35,578 nucleotides of DNA from Verrucomicrobiota bacterium (GTDB lineage Bacteria; Verrucomicrobiota; Kiritimatiellia; RFP12; UBA1067), in NCBI GenBank assembly GCA_016288465.1, contig JAEEZC010000228.1:1-35578 (forward strand), in the 5' to 3' direction. Positions within the stretch are counted from its first letter, which is position 1. The number at the start of each line of letters is the position of its first letter. A program made the translations under genes and the position numbers. The notes beneath the pieces are model-generated. The model was given only the letters and a program-made list of their open reading frames with translations. It made no database searches and was not told the origin of the DNA. Positions 8,661 through 16,349 of this stretch are shown piece by piece.

Positions 8661-9227
8661 GTGGAAGTTTGGGAGGACATCGCTGCCAATGCCGAGGCTG
8701 GGGCAAGGCGGCTTGTCGCCGAGTATGGCGACAGGCTGTTTAGTGCCGCCGTTCGCATTTGCGGCAATGAAAGCGATGCGGAGGATCTCGTGTTCCGCAC
8801 GCTCTCCCATGCCATCGTCAAAATAAGGCAATACGGCAACCGCTGTTCGTTCTTCTCGTGGCTGTACAGCATCCTTGCGAACTTCCATCGGATGGACATG
8901 CGCAAGAAGGGTGCTGCCGCCATCGTCCTCTGCGATGAACTTCCCGAAATAGAGGATTTTGCGCCAAATCCGGCGGATCGGCTCGATTTCCAGACGGAAG
9001 CGGATGTCGTCCGAGAAGCGACCGCGCAGCTGCCGGAGCCGCTTCGTGAAATCATAGTGCTTCGCTACTTCGAGGACTTGAGCCTGCGCGAGATTTCCGC
9101 GTTGCTGAAGCTTCCGCTCACCACGGTCAAGTTCCGTCTGCATTTCGCCAAGAGGAAACTTCGTGCGAAACTAAGACTATCCTTTCGCGGAGAAACCGCA
9201 TCTTACGGAGCAGAGGCAGCACAATGA
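8661..9227 (+). CDS. ECF-family RNA polymerase sigma factor
   Basis: A 188-aa sigma factor with region 2 ('RLFSAAVRICGNESDAEDLVFRTLSHAI', then 'SFFSWLYSILANFHRMD') and region 4 ('LPEPLREIIVLRYFEDLSLREISALLKLPLTTVKFRLHFAKRKL', a helix-turn-helix that binds the -35 element). GTG 8661 is the first usable start after an in-frame TGA at 8655-8657; its ribosome site is poor. The gene overlaps the next by 4 nt (ATGA). That next gene begins with a zinc-binding anti-sigma domain, so the two form a regulator pair. The direct targets are unknown; the surface protein encoded immediately downstream and the secreted enzymes that follow are natural candidates. Confidence 0.9.
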   Translation: MEVWEDIAANAEAGARRLVAEYGDRLFSAAVRICGNESDAEDLVFRTLSHAIVKIRQYGNRCSFFSWLYSILANFHRMDMRKKGAAAIVLCDELPEIEDFAPNPADRLDFQTEADVVREATAQLPEPLREIIVLRYFEDLSLREISALLKLPLTTVKFRLHFAKRKLRAKLRLSFRGETASYGAEAAQ

Positions 9228-12115
9228 ACTGCAAAGAGGCCATAGAACTTGCCGAGGAGGCGATGGACAGGGATTTGCCGCGCGCCGTCAAGCGCCGGTT
9301 GGATCTGCACCTGTCGCACTGCGAATCATGCCGTCGGCTTTTCGAGACCGAACGCGCCGAACACGTGCGCTGGTTCCGCATTTTCAACGACCCTGCCTTC
9401 ATGCGCAGCCTGCCGCCCGGTTTCGCGGACCGTCTGGCCGAGGCGGCGCTCGTGAACCGTCCCGGTTTTTGGTTCCGCATCCCGCGTTGGCTGAAGAGGG
9501 TGGCGTGCCTTGCGCTGCTCCTTTCGGGTGTAGCTTATGCGGCGGTTGTCGCAAGGCCGAGACAGGTGGAACCTATTGGTCCGATTGAAGACCCTGTAAT
9601 GGATTTTGGAAAGCTTCCGTGTGACGAAACGCTCCAAGAAGAGGAAACTCAAATGAACATACAAAAGACTCTAACCGCTGCGGCGTCTGCTGTCGTGCTG
9701 ACCGCAACCGCCTTTGACTATCCGGTCTATACGGTAACGACTTCGGGCGATGGCACCACCAGCCTTGCTTCCGCGCAGGTGGAGGTCGTTTCGGCGGAAG
9801 GGGCTACGCCTGAGACGGTGGCGTTCTCGTCGCTTACATTGAGTTCGGGTACGTTCCGCAAAAAAGGCACGGGTTTCCTTATGTCGGCGGATGGGATGGC
9901 GTCGTTCACCGGAACGGTTCTCGTCGAGGAGGGGGCGTGGATATCGACGAAGCTTGGCCACCTCGGCAGAAGCGCGTCAACAACCGACAGGTCGGCGGTG
10001 GTCGTCTCCAACGGCGCATCGATCGTGTTCGACATTCCCGACAGCGCAACCGCAGCTTTCCGCCATAACATTACGCTTGGAGGCGTTGGCTACAACGGCA
10101 TGGGTGCGGTATGCATGAACAGCCCTGGCCCAAACACTTCGGCAAGCAAACCTCTTTTCCGCAATTCGACATGGACGATGACGGACGATGCCACAATAAA
10201 ACTGCTCAACCGCACTGACAAGCCGCTATGCACCTGGTACGTCACATTCGCTATGAACGGACACACGCTTACATTTTCAGGTTTCGGCGATGTCACCGGC
10301 TCTACATATAACCGTACTTATCTGTTCAACTCAGCATTTTCTGGAACTGTCGGACACATTGTGCTAGACAGTGCCCGCTTGTACTACTACAATTACGACA
10401 CAGCCACCTCTACCTATACGTTCACGGGATCAAGCGCGAATACACTCACCATCAGAGGCGGAGACGGAAACAGGACACGAAATGATGCATGGCTCTATAC
10501 CGGCAACATGACGCAACCTTCGCCATGGACTCTTGTCTTTGAAGGCAGTGGTGTTCTCTCTTCGGGAAGTGGGACGTGGGGAACGACAAACACAATCCCG
10601 CAAGCCGGATGGGCGGGTCCCGTTGTGCTGTCGAGTGAAAACGCTTTCGTCACCGGCGGTTCGACAAACTCCTATTCTTTCCTTAATACTGTTTCGGGCA
10701 ATGGTGGACTGCAATGTTCGCGTGGACAGCAGATCAACCTCGTTAACGGCGGCAACTCGTTCAAGGGCGAGGTGAAGATCAATGCAAGCCGTGATTCCAA
10801 CCATGATGGCGAACTGCGCGTGTTCTGGAATGGTGCGCTGCCCAAGGACAGCGCGGGGGCTACGCTCTATAACAGCGACCTTACGTTGATGTACAGCCAT
10901 GACTACCAATTGCCGTTGCTGACCTTTGATGTGGCAGATGGCAAGACCAAGAAATTCTCCGGCGGCACGAACGGCGTGGTGCGTTCGTTCAGGAAGACGG
11001 GTGCGGGTGTGTTGGACATGACCTCGCCCCTGACGGTGACGGGCGTGACGGAACTTGCGGGCGGCACATTGCGCCTTCCCTGCGACCGGGCGGGACTGGT
11101 GTTCGGCGCAGAGTTTCATGGGGACGACCTGACCTCAAGCGTCGGCAACATTGACAATGTCATCACTAACTGTGTTGAGCTGGGGACAGACCTGATGTAC
11201 ACGGATGACCTTGTCAAGTGGCAGAGACTTGACTCGACGCCATATAACCGGCGGCGTCTCTTTACATACCACGGTTACATTTGGAACAGGACGAACGAAC
11301 CGCAGACCTGGACATTCGCCGCCCAGATTGTGAGTGGGATGCAGATATTCATCGACGGGGTGCAACAGAATTGGACAGGTGTATCGTCATGGTACAATTT
11401 CTACAATGACAAGAAGGTTGGCTTTATGACCTTCAGCAATGTGTCGCCTGGATGGCACAGGCTGGACGTCCGTGCGTACGCCACACAGGCGGATTCCGGG
11501 TATGGCCTTTTGGCGAATCGCATTGGCGGTGTTGACAAAATCGAGAACGCCACATGGCAGGCCGACCTTGGCCTTGCCATCGACCGGCAGGGGCGCGGCA
11601 GCACGAACTGCGAGGACTACGAGAAGCTTGTTGATCCGGGCGACGGCTCTTTCCTGACGGTAGTGCCCGGCAATGCGGAAAATGCGGAGGGCGTGATCGC
11701 GCACATGCCGAAGTTCGACCATCTGAAGTTCACCGGCGGAACGCTCGATGTGCGCGGCAGCGACATAACGGTGCCGGTCCTGGAGGGCGTGAACGGCGAG
11801 GTGGCGAACTCCAACGCCTACTTCCCGGGCGGCTCTCTGACTGTCGGCCGGAAATGGATCGTTCCTTCTTCCGTCGGCAAGACGCTGACGATTGCGTGCA
11901 AGCTGAAGTTTGCCGCAGGTGCGGCGCTCGAGTGCGATTTCACGAATCTGCCGCACGGCGAATACACGCTTGCGACCGCGGCAGGCGGCATCGACGGAGT
12001 GCCTGCCTTCGACACTGCGGCCAACCGTGGGTGGCACCTCGTCAAGGGAACCGCCAATGGCGTGGATTCGCTCAAGCTCTTCTGGCAGCCCGGCATGATG
12101 ATAGTGATCCACTGA
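9224..12115 (+). CDS. Zinc-finger anti-sigma factor reading in frame into a secreted beta-strand/PA14-like surface protein
   Basis: One uninterrupted 963-aa frame with two parts. Residues 1-142 are an anti-sigma factor: ZAS motif H29-x3-C33-x2-C36, then a single membrane helix near residues 91-109 ('VACLALLLSGVAYAAVVA') and a short acidic tail. Residue 144 (ATG 9653) then starts what looks like a fresh signal peptide (MNIQKTLTAAASAVVLTATA) with its own ribosome site, followed by about 800 residues of secreted protein. That part is Ser/Thr/Gly/Asn-rich with autotransporter-associated strand signatures ('TVSGNGGLQ', 'FRKTGAGVLDMTSPLTVTGVTELAGGTLRL') and a PA14-like region at about residues 630-760 of the whole frame ('WTFAAQIVSGMQIFIDG', 'VSPGWHRLDVRAYA'). 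No C-terminal beta-barrel is seen. Either a real fusion that couples a surface sensor to the sigma factor, or two genes whose separating stop has been lost. Confidence 0.8.
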   Translation: MNCKEAIELAEEAMDRDLPRAVKRRLDLHLSHCESCRRLFETERAEHVRWFRIFNDPAFMRSLPPGFADRLAEAALVNRPGFWFRIPRWLKRVACLALLLSGVAYAAVVARPRQVEPIGPIEDPVMDFGKLPCDETLQEEETQMNIQKTLTAAASAVVLTATAFDYPVYTVTTSGDGTTSLASAQVEVVSAEGATPETVAFSSLTLSSGTFRKKGTGFLMSADGMASFTGTVLVEEGAWISTKLGHLGRSASTTDRSAVVVSNGASIVFDIPDSATAAFRHNITLGGVGYNGMGAVCMNSPGPNTSASKPLFRNSTWTMTDDATIKLLNRTDKPLCTWYVTFAMNGHTLTFSGFGDVTGSTYNRTYLFNSAFSGTVGHIVLDSARLYYYNYDTATSTYTFTGSSANTLTIRGGDGNRTRNDAWLYTGNMTQPSPWTLVFEGSGVLSSGSGTWGTTNTIPQAGWAGPVVLSSENAFVTGGSTNSYSFLNTVSGNGGLQCSRGQQINLVNGGNSFKGEVKINASRDSNHDGELRVFWNGALPKDSAGATLYNSDLTLMYSHDYQLPLLTFDVADGKTKKFSGGTNGVVRSFRKTGAGVLDMTSPLTVTGVTELAGGTLRLPCDRAGLVFGAEFHGDDLTSSVGNIDNVITNCVELGTDLMYTDDLVKWQRLDSTPYNRRRLFTYHGYIWNRTNEPQTWTFAAQIVSGMQIFIDGVQQNWTGVSSWYNFYNDKKVGFMTFSNVSPGWHRLDVRAYATQADSGYGLLANRIGGVDKIENATWQADLGLAIDRQGRGSTNCEDYEKLVDPGDGSFLTVVPGNAENAEGVIAHMPKFDHLKFTGGTLDVRGSDITVPVLEGVNGEVANSNAYFPGGSLTVGRKWIVPSSVGKTLTIACKLKFAAGAALECDFTNLPHGEYTLATAAGGIDGVPAFDTAANRGWHLVKGTANGVDSLKLFWQPGMMIVIH
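9641..9655 (+). promoter_or_regulatory. Internal ribosome site and ATG for the secreted part
   Basis: GAGGA at 9641-9645 lies 7 nt before ATG 9653, which begins a signal-peptide-like sequence. This supports separate translation of an 820-aa secreted protein (9653-12115) as well as, or instead of, the long fusion. Confidence 0.6.
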
Positions 12116-12213: not shown

Positions 12214-13140
12214 ATGAAATGCATGATGTTTATGATGGCCGTCGGAATATCGGCGGGAACCGCGTTGGCGTGGGAGGTGCCGAACTGGGCCACCATCGTC
12301 ACGGAGCCGGGCGCGATCCAGGAGCAGTACGGCAGCACGAAGAAATGGTGCGGACACGTCCAGGGTATGTGCGTCAGCTCCAATGCCATCTACTTCTCGT
12401 TCCATGACCAGATTGTGAAGACGGACTGGTACGGACGGCTTCTGGACCGCGCCCCCGTCGATCCGCACAGCGGCGACATCTGCATCTGGAACGGCAAGCT
12501 CTATACGGGCGTGTGGCTCAGGCCCAAGGCGAAGGGTGAGAAAGCCTGTGGAGCCATCTGCGTGTACGACGCCGAAACGCTGAAGCTTCTCAAGGAGCAG
12601 AAGGTAGAGTCGAAGGATGCGGGGGTCGACGGCATCACCTGCCTTGACGGCGTCATCTACCTCGCCATGGGCGCAACCGGCAAATACGACCCCGTCAAGA
12701 AGTGCGGGCGCACATGCTGGTACTGCAAGTTCAACGCCGAGACGCTGGAGCAGATCGGCGAGCCGTTCGGCGTGGACCACGGAGACCATTCGGAGTGCGG
12801 TTCGCAGAACATGACGACCGACGGCAAATACATCTATTCCAGCCACTACACCTACGACGAGGCGGAGCGGACGCCGAACGTGGTCGTGCACGACAAGGAC
12901 ACGTTCAAGGTTGTCGCCAAGTACAGGTTTGGCTGGAACCACGGCATCGACGTGGTCCCGGGCGGCAAGGATGGCGCGGTGCGCTTCGCCTGGGTGTTCA
13001 CGCCAAACTGGATCGGCAGGCTTTGCAAGAAGCAGAAGCTTCCTATTTACGGCATCGTCCAGTTCGTGGAACTGAAGGACGGACAGGTCTACGACTTCAC
13101 CATGCGCGGCGGCGGATTCACTAAGGAGATAGAGCGTTGA
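12214..13140 (+). CDS. Secreted protein of unknown function, probable beta-propeller
   Basis: A 308-aa protein with a signal peptide (MKCMMFMMAVGISAGTALA, cut before WEVP). The mature part shows repeating short units typical of a propeller fold: 'QGMCVSSNAIYFSFHDQIVKTDWYG', 'GDICIWNGKLYTGVWL', 'DGITCLDGVIYLAMGA' and 'QNMTTDGKYIYSSHYTY', each pairing 'x.YI/LY' with a charged loop. Several Cys (for example WCGHVQGMC and CGRTCWYC) could form disulfides. No catalytic motif is recognised; the glutaminyl cyclase-type propellers look superficially similar. The gene is joined to the GH-CE15 gene by a TTGA overlap, so the two proteins are probably made together, and a role in handling plant polysaccharide fragments is a reasonable guess. 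Confidence 0.7.
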   Translation: MKCMMFMMAVGISAGTALAWEVPNWATIVTEPGAIQEQYGSTKKWCGHVQGMCVSSNAIYFSFHDQIVKTDWYGRLLDRAPVDPHSGDICIWNGKLYTGVWLRPKAKGEKACGAICVYDAETLKLLKEQKVESKDAGVDGITCLDGVIYLAMGATGKYDPVKKCGRTCWYCKFNAETLEQIGEPFGVDHGDHSECGSQNMTTDGKYIYSSHYTYDEAERTPNVVVHDKDTFKVVAKYRFGWNHGIDVVPGGKDGAVRFAWVFTPNWIGRLCKKQKLPIYGIVQFVELKDGQVYDFTMRGGGFTKEIER

Positions 13141-16100
13141 AGCCTTTGACTATCATTGTGGCGCTGTCTGCGTGGGCAGCGTTCGCCGGGGTGCCGGTGG
13201 AACTGAAGAATGCGGGGTTCCACGAGACGGACGGGAAGGGGGGCGCTGTCGGCTGGAGCCACCATCCGAACTGGCATGCCGAGAAGGCCGGGCACAACGG
13301 CTCCGGCGCGCTCGTGTGGGAATGCGCGGCGGAAAGCGACGTGAAGAACGGCGGGCCGGGGCAGGAAGTGCAGCTGAAGCCCGGCAAACGCTACGACTTC
13401 TCCGCCATATTCAAGCCTGACGGAGTGGTCACGCAGCGCAAGTCGGTCCATCAGGGGCTTACGCTTTATGTAGAAGGCTACGACGCCAACGGCAAGTGGA
13501 TGTTTGGCGACATGGCTCGTCCGCCAGCAGCAGGCAAGTCTGATGAATGGATCAAGATCGAGGGCTTGACTCGCGAAATTCCAGATGGTGTCGCGAAGGC
13601 GTACTTCAGGGTGATTGCAAAGCGGTGCGTTTCGGGGCGTGGCGCGGTCGATAACGTGTATCTCGCCGAACGCGAGACGGTTGCTGTTGAAGGAGTGTTT
13701 CCGCATGTGTACCGCCGCGAATCGACGGGTGGGCCTGTGCGCTTCTCGGCTTCCATCAACACCGATGTGCATGAGAACAAGCTAGAGGATTATTCGGCGA
13801 AGTTCACGTATGTGGCGGCGGATGGCCGTCGCATGACGGCGCAGGGTGAGTTGGCATCTCCTGTCGAGGCTGTGGCTACGCTTGATACGTCGCTCTTCGC
13901 GTTCGGCACGAACGATGTCGTCTGTACGCTCTTCCTCAAGGGCAAGGAACTTGGTTCCGCGAAGGTTCCGTTCGCGCATCTCGCGAAGCCCGCGCCGCGC
14001 CGCGTGTACATCGACCGCCACCTTCGCGCCATCGTAGACGGCAAGCCGTTCTTCCCGTTCGGCATGTGCTACTGGGGCGAGGTCACTAAGGAAGGGCTTG
14101 AACGGTATGCCGAGGGTCCGTTCAACTGCGTGAACACCGACTGGAGCATGCAGCCGGAGCAGCTTGAGCTCTGCCGCGAAAAGGGTCTGCTTGCCATCTG
14201 CGGCCTCGAAAAGGGATTTGACGAACCGGACGAAGGCCAGTCGTGGCTCACGGAGCGCGTGAACGCCATGAAAAACCATCCGGCTGTCATGGGCTGGTTC
14301 GTGAGCGACGAACAGCCGATTGCGGACATTCCCAAGATGAGGCGTCGGCAGGGATGGATGGAGACTCTGGACCCGAACCATCCGACTTGGTTTGCGCTGG
14401 ACACCGTGCGCGAGGCCAGACACTATCTCGGCACTGCGGACGTAATGGGGCTTGATCCCTATCCGATCCCGACAAAGCCAATCGGACTCGTCCATTCGAC
14501 GACCTGCCGAGGCGTCACGAACACATTTGGTGCGATGGCAAACTGGCAGTTCCCGCAGGCGTTTGGCTGGGGCTGGCTCAAGCGTCGCGAGACGAAGGGG
14601 CAGCGCGCGCCCACGCAGAAGGAAATGGCGAACATGGGCTGGCAGGCAATCGCCGGCGGCGCGAACGGTCTCATATTCTATGCCTACCAACACCTCTCCG
14701 AGCCTCACGATGACCCAGAAGATGCGTTTGATCCCGCGTGGGCGCGCACGAAGGCGATGGCCGAGGAATTCAGGAAGTACATCGACGTTTTCCTTTCCGT
14801 CGACCCTGCGCCGACGGCGAAAAGCTCCAACGACGACGTGGCGGTGCGCACTTGGCGACACCAAGGCGACACGTATCTCCTTGTCGTGAACTGCACGACG
14901 AACGCTCAGACCGCGACGATAACGCTCTCGGAACCGTTGGGCAAGGACGTCATAGCGGACTTCGCCCCGGCGCCGGACATTGAAGGCAACAAGGTGCGTG
15001 TGGCCCTTGATCCGATATCCTACATGATGCTCCGCGCGAAGAAGTCCCAGAGCGTCTTCGTGCAGGACCGCGAAGTCTTCGTGCACGATGCGAACTACGA
15101 CAAAGACAAGATTCAGCCGTACACACTTGAGAATCCGCTTGCGTTCGCGGACGGGCGGAAGGTGTCGTCCGCCTCGGACTGGAGCGAGCGCCGGCGCGAG
15201 ATACTCGGCATCTTCGCGAAGGAGATGTACGGGGCGGAGCCGCCTCAGCCCGAGACGCTCGTGACCGAGCTTGTCGACGAAAAGGACGCCATTGACGGGC
15301 TCGCCGTGCGCCGCCAGTACAAGATGTGGTTCAAGGCTGACAGAACGGGTCCGTGCATTACGTGGATCATGTGGATACCCAAGCCCGCGAAGAAGCCTGT
15401 GCCGATCATATCCTTTCTCAACTACCGAGGCAACCACGAGCTTGTGCCCGACGAGGACATACCTGTGCAGCAGGGCTGGACACGCGGCGGTGAGAGGTTT
15501 GGCGTCACGAACTTCACGTCGAGCGCGATGACGCGCGGCGTCATGCAGGACCCTGGCAATCGCAGCGTGTTTCCTGTAGGCATGATCCTGGCGCGCGGGT
15601 ACGCCGTGATGAGCGCATGCTACTGCGAAGTTTCGCCTGATCCCGAAAGAGACGAAAGGGATCCTCGGTTCATGCAGAATCCGTTCGCATATACGGGGGT
15701 GTTCGATCTGTGGGGGCCGCGTGACCCGTCGCGAACGGACAACATCACTGCGCTAGGCGCATGGGCGTGGGCGCTTTCACGAGGGCTGGACCTCGCCGAG
15801 CGCGTTCCCGAGCTGGACGCAAAGCGGGCTGTGGTGACCGGCTGTTCGCGACTTGGCAAGGCGGCGCTCATCGCGGCGGCGAGGGACGAGAGGTTTGCGG
15901 TGTGTGTGCCCAACCAGACGGGCGGCGGCGGCGTGCCGCTTGCGAAGCGCGACTATGGCGAGAACGTCTCAACAGAGAACCGCTACTTCACGCACTGGTA
16001 CTGCCGCGCATATGCGAAGTACGCCGAGGCTCCGTGGAGAGACATGCCGTTCGACCAGCATCTCTTCATTGCCTGCATAGCCCCGCGTGCGCTGCTTGTC

Positions 16101-16349
16101 GAGGGCTTCGACTCCCGCTGGTTCGACACCGAAGGCGAGTATCTTTCCGTCAAAGCCGCTAGTCCCGTGTGGACGTTCCTTGGAAAGGGCGGAATGCCGG
16201 ATGTCGCATGGCCGGCCGACTACGACACGTCCGCAATCGGCCGTCACCTCGGCTACGTTCGCAGGGCGGGAAGCCACGGTCTGTCGGCATGCGACTGGAC
16301 GTGGCTGATGGACTTCGCAGACGGCGTATTCGGAGATCCTCGCAGATAG
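13137..16349 (+). CDS. Secreted bimodular enzyme: clan GH-A-like glycoside hydrolase fused to CE15 glucuronoyl esterase
   Basis: A 1070-aa protein starting at TTG 13137, which overlaps the previous stop and has AAGGAG about 9 nt upstream; the signal peptide is KPLTIIVALSAWAAFAG. Residues about 20-190 look like a galactose-binding/CBM jelly-roll ('GKRYDFSAIFKPDG', 'KAYFRVIAKRC'). Residues about 300-560 form a barrel beginning 'FFPFGMCYWG', with a probable acid/base Glu392 in 'GWFVSDEQP'. From about residue 660 the sequence is a CE15 alpha/beta hydrolase: nucleophile Ser904 in GCSRLGKAA and catalytic His1047 in 'AGSHGL'. The classical acid position ('NESG' in related enzymes) is Gln927 ('NQTGGGG'); Asp992 in 'GFDSRWFDTEGE' sits where some bacterial CE15 enzymes carry a replacement acid. 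CE15 enzymes cleave ester links between glucuronoxylan and lignin. The fusion suggests coupled ester and glycoside cleavage. Confidence 0.85.
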   Translation: MKPLTIIVALSAWAAFAGVPVELKNAGFHETDGKGGAVGWSHHPNWHAEKAGHNGSGALVWECAAESDVKNGGPGQEVQLKPGKRYDFSAIFKPDGVVTQRKSVHQGLTLYVEGYDANGKWMFGDMARPPAAGKSDEWIKIEGLTREIPDGVAKAYFRVIAKRCVSGRGAVDNVYLAERETVAVEGVFPHVYRRESTGGPVRFSASINTDVHENKLEDYSAKFTYVAADGRRMTAQGELASPVEAVATLDTSLFAFGTNDVVCTLFLKGKELGSAKVPFAHLAKPAPRRVYIDRHLRAIVDGKPFFPFGMCYWGEVTKEGLERYAEGPFNCVNTDWSMQPEQLELCREKGLLAICGLEKGFDEPDEGQSWLTERVNAMKNHPAVMGWFVSDEQPIADIPKMRRRQGWMETLDPNHPTWFALDTVREARHYLGTADVMGLDPYPIPTKPIGLVHSTTCRGVTNTFGAMANWQFPQAFGWGWLKRRETKGQRAPTQKEMANMGWQAIAGGANGLIFYAYQHLSEPHDDPEDAFDPAWARTKAMAEEFRKYIDVFLSVDPAPTAKSSNDDVAVRTWRHQGDTYLLVVNCTTNAQTATITLSEPLGKDVIADFAPAPDIEGNKVRVALDPISYMMLRAKKSQSVFVQDREVFVHDANYDKDKIQPYTLENPLAFADGRKVSSASDWSERRREILGIFAKEMYGAEPPQPETLVTELVDEKDAIDGLAVRRQYKMWFKADRTGPCITWIMWIPKPAKKPVPIISFLNYRGNHELVPDEDIPVQQGWTRGGERFGVTNFTSSAMTRGVMQDPGNRSVFPVGMILARGYAVMSACYCEVSPDPERDERDPRFMQNPFAYTGVFDLWGPRDPSRTDNITALGAWAWALSRGLDLAERVPELDAKRAVVTGCSRLGKAALIAAARDERFAVCVPNQTGGGGVPLAKRDYGENVSTENRYFTHWYCRAYAKYAEAPWRDMPFDQHLFIACIAPRALLVEGFDSRWFDTEGEYLSVKAASPVWTFLGKGGMPDVAWPADYDTSAIGRHLGYVRRAGSHGLSACDWTWLMDFADGVFGDPRR

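Follow-up and report, generated by a model that had tools for sequence, protein, structure and literature searches.

Can a single bacterial reading frame supply both a membrane-tethered sensor and a freely secreted form of the same surface protein? This question is raised by an open reading frame (ORF) in which an anti-sigma factor continues into a large surface protein. The ORF lies on a stretch of 35,578 nucleotides from a Verrucomicrobiota bacterium (contig JAEEZC010000228.1 of assembly GCA_016288465.1), hereafter called the window. The source organism is a gut member of the Kiritimatiellae, represented by a fragmented metagenome-assembled genome (MAG; 3.5 Mb, 393 contigs, 83% complete). 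Its closest named relatives comprise a goat ileum MAG of the Kiritimatiellae and uncultured-bacterium MAGs of the RUG series. The ORF shares four nucleotides (ATGA) with the preceding gene for an extracytoplasmic function (ECF) sigma factor and encodes, in this order, a ZAS anti-sigma domain, a membrane helix (TM1), a linker, a Shine-Dalgarno (SD) site with an internal ATG, a signal peptide, a strand-rich passenger and a hydrophobic-basic tail (Table 1). As originally predicted, the anti-sigma factor runs without a stop into the surface protein, with 963 codons open, and a second signal-peptide-like segment is present after residue 144, its n-region bearing Lys and its h-region rich in Ala and Val. 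The prediction had left two readings, a one-piece sensor or separate synthesis of the surface protein. We favour both at once: the gene probably has two products, a tethered sensor and a separately secreted copy of the same surface protein. Of the earlier reading, the fusion frame stands and the single product is unlikely.

The frame is retained across a family in the order of the source organism. This family comprises 97 loci from 27 genomes in which the frame of a regulator stays open through a single helix and on towards a surface protein; the N-terminal part is the ECF sigma factor itself in 75 loci and an anti-sigma factor in 22. An order-wide search for sigma factor plus helix gave 93 loci at E <= 3e-56, counted from the match rows, and 81 of them have frames of at least 300 amino acids (aa). 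The other twelve are shorter: eleven run off the contig by their coordinates (three were checked directly) and one, G158:C1, ends in the linker. A stop before the internal ATG, if shared by all relatives, had been named as the finding that would speak against a fusion; among the homologous loci compared, only G158:C1 leaves the frame. At this locus (L237), the sole one with a linker stop, the passenger is out of frame with the sigma factor and the stop overlaps the internal ATG, which may be a natural split or an assembly error. Eighty linkers with 5138 codons contain no stop in frame 0 as compared to 76 and 143 stops in the other frames, and shuffling would leave 11.8 of the 80 linkers open. 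Since this count is partly conditional on the selection of loci by their open frame, the count over 93 loci is the fairer test.

The composition of the linkers points in the same direction. They are acidic and hydrophilic in frame 0 only (K/R 5%, D/E 16%; K/R 25-26% in the other frames), where they read as Ser/Thr/Pro/Gly-rich acidic stalks. The linker is the least constrained part, with a pooled dN/dS of about 0.59; the regulator has 0.33, the signal peptide 0.38 and the passenger 0.43. The junctions fall into 17-22 clusters of DNA similarity; retention of the frame is therefore not explained by close relatedness alone. Linker indels were multiples of three in 37 of 97 cases in forced nucleotide alignments, a count that is uninformative because the linkers are too diverged. 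Tandem in-frame repeats (GGTSETGGT, STASTVSTAS) and translated low-complexity DNA (FNLSTFQPFNFST) occur in linkers of G048, G050, G158, G037 and G157. About a dozen fusions are built alike but lack a second signal peptide, and these include both regulator types: sigma fusions (C145, C37, G006:C6, G060:C168, G075:C78, G008:C79, G068:C284) and anti-sigma fusions (C266, G060:C145, G082:C174, G059:C53, G005:C152). For their passengers the helix of the fusion is the only visible export signal. One passenger cluster is mixed: G029, G062 and G081 have the second signal peptide and five other members lack it.

The internal start, present with SD site and signal peptide in 80 loci, is real by every sequence criterion applied. 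With internal starts chosen blind to the SD, pairing with the 16S tail has a median energy of -6.6 kcal/mol versus -2.5 kcal/mol at other in-frame ATGs (p 4e-24). The region is also less paired (unpaired fraction 0.62 versus 0.41, p 3e-27; 0.51 in the window) and has a GC content of 42% versus 61%. Asn is the second residue after the start in 57 of 80 loci. In G075:C35, a GTG takes the place of the ATG of G012:C17 and the SD is kept. SD, open RNA and a conserved start codon, the sequence criteria for a dual start, are all found. The proposal that GAGGA-ATG at 9641-9655 allows separate synthesis agrees with these features and with the start of a standalone homologue. This standalone gene, L035 in G004, encodes a homologue of the window passenger with 50% identity, begins at the aligned codon, where it has an SD of its own, and carries its own AAAAGGAG. 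Therefore a regulator unit was either added to an existing gene for a secreted protein, at its start and in frame, or separated from it there. A homologue of the esterase protein that follows the fusion gene in the window is found near this standalone gene (79% identity over 311 aa). An anti-sigma factor in G004 is about 75% identical to that of the window, yet it precedes a different passenger; parts have therefore been exchanged. In other pairs (G012:C17 and G075:C35; G012:C43a and G032:C24), a near-identical regulator, linker and signal peptide stand before different passengers, or the same linker follows a diverged sigma factor. Judged from such cases (G012:C17/G075:C35, G004:C44), passengers and regulators recombine around the junction of linker and signal peptide.

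From the sequence we infer the following scheme, in which both protein products, their topology, the ligand, proteolysis, sigma release and the regulon are predictions. Translation from 9224 would give a tethered anti-sigma factor with the ZAS domain in the cytoplasm, one helix, a stalk and, outside the cell, a ligand-binding part of beta-helix and PA14-like domain. Translation from 9653 would give the same surface protein in an ordinary secreted form, which has a signal peptide of its own and the C-terminal tail. The long product would hold the sigma factor at the membrane, through the ZAS domain in the window and directly in most relatives. Contact of the tethered copy with its ligand, probably a plant or mucus polysaccharide, would lead to proteolysis of the anti-sigma factor and release of the ECF sigma factor. 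The freed sigma factor would then drive its operon, and the short product would supply the surface protein itself. In sigma-fused members, the freed sigma factor would act on an ECF-type promoter and raise expression of its own gene. A site-2 protease gene is present, as in most bacteria.

A single-product sensor appears too simple, because the internal start is real and a standalone homologue begins there. We hold it distinctly unlikely that the gene yields one functional protein only, a tethered sensor in which internal ATG and signal peptide are relics from the capture of a secreted-protein gene. The members without a second signal peptide, the recombination of passengers and regulators around linker and signal peptide and the standalone occurrence of the window passenger in G004 all fit such a history. 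A relic, however, is at odds with SD, RNA openness and low GC being maintained in tens of divergent loci, with the GTG swap that keeps the SD, and with the co-occurrence of signal peptide and C-terminal tail, the tail being found in 67 of 76 passengers with the internal signal peptide and in 7 of 16 without (p 3e-4). A somewhat better, though still low, probability is given to two functional proteins, a regulator with a loosely constrained tail and a surface protein made from the internal start, with read-through as a by-product. All hallmarks of a true ribosome-binding site at the internal start, and a standalone homologue beginning at that codon, agree with this; so does the basic n-region retained by the signal peptide, needless in a tethered form. 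Moreover, a signal peptide relocated inside a trypanosome adhesin was not recognised (PMC6513831), which fits the need for an internal start. Linker stops should be neutral under this arrangement, and retention of the frame in all but one locus, throughout the junction clusters and in a fast-evolving linker, therefore counts against it, as does the existence of fusions without a second signal peptide. That the fusion is an assembly or frameshift artefact might be suspected in a MAG of 393 contigs; the same architecture is shared by relatives at 97 loci in 27 genomes, which refutes this explanation and leaves it a negligible probability.

Several observations weigh against the reading of a tethered sensor with a separately secreted copy. 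The internal signal peptide might enter the membrane as a second helix, in which case the long form would have a cytoplasmic passenger. AxA cleavage motifs are not convincingly enriched over shuffled segments, either for TM1 (0.45 versus 0.62) or for the internal signal peptide (0.88 versus 0.75). The sigma operon of the window is without a clear copy of the promoter shared in the family, and a sigma-70 scan gave no plus-strand promoter upstream of its sigma gene. The assignment of PA14 depends on a model of low to moderate confidence; modelled alone, this region reached a mean pLDDT (predicted local distance difference test) of 50, below use for a fold search. As regards topology, the net charge flanking TM1 is +3.4 before and -1.0 after the helix, and 93 of 97 loci follow the positive-inside rule with the N-terminus in. 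In all 80 loci the internal signal peptide has a lower hydrophobicity than TM1 (medians of 19-residue sums 5.0 versus -1.0, on a simple, rough biological scale) and therefore need not stop transfer. In the long form it could pass the translocon rather than form a second helix.

The passenger was expected to be rich in beta-strands, and an AlphaFold2 (AF2) model built from nine homologues confirms this with a beta-helix, a jelly-roll and, at the C-terminus, a further beta region, at moderate quality (mean pLDDT 68, predicted TM-score 0.65). In fold comparison the beta-helix resembles autotransporter passengers and phage tailspikes. The expected PA14-like part has moderate support from fold and none from sequence: a Pfam scan of the fusion ORF gave no PA14 match, and passenger region 476-662, in which the jelly-roll itself spans about 534-645, resembles PA14 sugar-binding domains at Z 6.0-6.7 on the moderate model. 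These domains include 6qe7, a protein with an anti-sigma factor domain. Foldseek on its own found nothing below E 0.001. The PA14-like identity of this region is accordingly tentative. A PDB sequence search of the fusion ORF returned GIM-1 at E 0.03, a marginal match regarded as chance. The tail PGMMIVIH is the sole instance of its type within the window. Most passengers of the family end in 4-5 hydrophobic residues, usually with a final R, K or H, past the last modelled strand, and this tail persists on mini-passengers (G000:C90, G004:C24, G004:C51). It matched no NCBIfam or Pfam family and is possibly a signal for sorting or protease recognition.

The nearest known kinds are RsgI and ECF52/SCO4117, which work along the lines proposed here. 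RsgI of Clostridium thermocellum combines a cytoplasmic anti-sigma domain, one helix and an extracellular carbohydrate-binding domain in one chain (PMC4711584), a plan that the window protein would share. It also resembles the family in forming a paralogous set per genome, and RsgI3 has a PA14 dyad. The outer parts of RsgI proteins are carbohydrate-binding modules, PA14 or glycoside hydrolase domains, and RsgI3 binds pectin through PA14 (PMC4711584); the extracellular domain of this type in the window would be the PA14-type fold seen in the moderate model (Z 6-6.7). RsgI differs by its Gram-positive host and by having RsgI_N and SigI where the window has ZAS and an ECF sigma factor, and no internal start with signal peptide is described for it in the literature covered (PMC4711584). 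In a Pfam scan up to E 1 the window ORF had no match to RsgI_N and is thus not of the RsgI family. ECF52 SCO4117 and IutY (ECF243) share with the family a sigma factor and a membrane segment in one chain, and activation by proteolysis has been proposed or shown for this type (PMC8999054). SCO4117 consists of sigma factor, ZAS, helix, a Pro-rich part in the periplasm and a carbohydrate-binding domain (PMC8999054). In contrast to this ZAS in the sigma chain, sigma factor and ZAS are separate genes in the window, which is thus not ECF52. Most relatives also differ from ECF52 in joining the sigma factor to a helix without recognisable ZAS, and the family adds large beta-helix or LamG passengers and the internal start.

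RsiV and RsiP, too, are membrane anti-sigma factors of ECF sigma factors. Their site-1 cut is made by signal peptidase, and a signal-peptide-like cleavage site may serve release (PMC8844934). In the window, however, the second signal-peptide-like segment follows a separate helix and linker, and the AxA enrichment is unconvincing. The autotransporter passengers of EspC and EspP share the beta-helix fold, whereas the window protein ends in a short hydrophobic-basic tail and no C-terminal translocator barrel is seen: a Pfam scan gave no barrel domain of a type Va translocator, and the model ends in the beta region and the short tail. Compared with these systems, an internal start combined with a signal peptide, passenger swapping and the copy number are new. 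We found no description of these elements in a literature search that left most subscription journals outside, and no paper on Kiritimatiellae together with anti-sigma factor or on Kiritimatiellota together with sigma factor.

ECF promoters of the sigma-W type read TGAAAC...CGTA. A TGAACC lies no more than 110 bases upstream in 21 of 74 sigma fusions, as compared to 2.2% of random windows; it is often TTGAACC, with CGNTA about 14 bases further on. The exact pattern TTGAACC-N2-TT-N11-GNTA has five matches in four whole genomes, four of them directly upstream of sigma fusions. This shared motif resembles ECF promoters and suggests self-regulation or self-amplification by the sigma factor, for sigma-fused members only. 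A wider proposal, which we put forward as a tentative possibility, is a large family of self-promoting surface proteins, each made in a secreted form and, from an upstream start in frame, in a form tethered to its own sigma (or anti-sigma) factor. Here the tethered copy would sense a ligand and the freed sigma factor would act on its own ECF promoter, amplifying those proteins that find their ligand, with parts swapped at the junction of linker and signal peptide. If the fusion genes work in the way inferred here, they would show how uncultured gut Kiritimatiellae, for which little regulation is known, couple contact with polysaccharide to surface display. They would also be a clear example from nature of a reading frame with two outputs, a tethered sensor and a free, secreted form. 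Gene callers will report each such gene as a single odd fusion and miss its internal start.

Single genomes carry 12 or more such genes, and the fusions thus probably form a main layer of regulation in these bacteria. The source genome has further anti-sigma fusions (C267, C291, C104, C92, C190, C266) and fusions with an N-terminal sigma factor (C123, C387, C145, C37, C90). In order-wide searches, matches to the sigma model reach 19 per genome (G048), and most frames have 700-1560 aa. Among 338 genomes sampled across the phylum, the form with sigma factor and helix is confined to this order (E 1e-45). Passengers group into 27 similarity clusters, with LamG (PF13385), the glycine-rich PF21722 and weak PATR-like beta-strand repeats among their domains, and the zinc ligands are gone from many of the anti-sigma domains.

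In the window, the zinc motif consists of C3 and H29-x3-C33-x2-C36 (Hx3Cx2C). The scores are just below the cut-off for zf-HC2 (21.9 bits; cut-off 22.2) and well below it for NF052368 (33; cut-off 50). The motif lies near the N-terminus, and an ECF sigma factor whose regions 2 and 4 exceed the Pfam cut-offs is co-encoded, as in class I ZAS proteins. By these features the N-terminus of the ORF is a class I ZAS-type anti-sigma domain, with predicted inhibition of the sigma factor.

Table 1. Features of the fusion locus and its neighbours (coordinates refer to the window).
Feature	Position	Strand	Basis or remark
ECF sigma factor gene, 188 aa	8661..9227	+	Pfam Sigma70_r4_2 E 1.2e-14, Sigma70_r2 E 6.6e-8
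Fusion ORF, 963 aa, stop-free	9224..12115	+	ORF list, translation
ZAS (zf-HC2-like) anti-sigma domain, residues 3-37	9230..9334	+	Pfam zf-HC2 near cut-off, NF052368, conserved columns
Transmembrane helix TM1, residues 92-110	9497..9553	+	Predicted N-in/C-out from flanking charges
Linker, 33 aa, residues 111-143	9554..9652	+	Open, acidic frame kept across family
GAGGAA, internal SD-like site	9641..9646	+	Duplex -6.0 kcal/mol
Internal ATG 9653-9655 (residue 144) and signal-peptide-like segment MNIQKTLTAAASAVVLTATAF	9653..9715	+	Aligns with N-terminus of L035; cleavage point approximate
Beta-helix, passenger residues about 25-475	9725..11077	+	AF2; EspC 9mne Z 12.7, EspP 3sze Z 10.7
PA14-like jelly-roll (tentative), passenger residues about 476-662	11078..11638	+	AF2, fold matches
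C-terminal beta region, 687-811 in model	11711..12085	+	AF2
Tail PGMMIVIH, hydrophobic run and basic last residue	12089..12112	+	Low model confidence
Secreted protein, 1070 aa, fungal-type glucuronyl-esterase domain at C-terminus	13137..16349	+	Pfam PF22244 E 5e-31

The gene for the glucuronyl-esterase protein adjoins the fusion gene. Elsewhere in the order, L197 (G012:C26) and L196 (G015:C19), with orthologues in many genomes of the genus, are single ORFs of about 587-613 aa that apparently join sigma and anti-sigma factor in one chain. They consist of a sigma factor, a stretch that resembles anti-sigma factors (LSPxFxxRLxKATRP), a helix and a portion with weak similarity to squalene-hopene cyclase (SQHop_cyclase_C, E 3e-4, under the cut-off). 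Other sigma genes (G004:C68, G002:C28, G062:C173) overlap a downstream ORF that, judged by eye, resembles a serine/threonine kinase.

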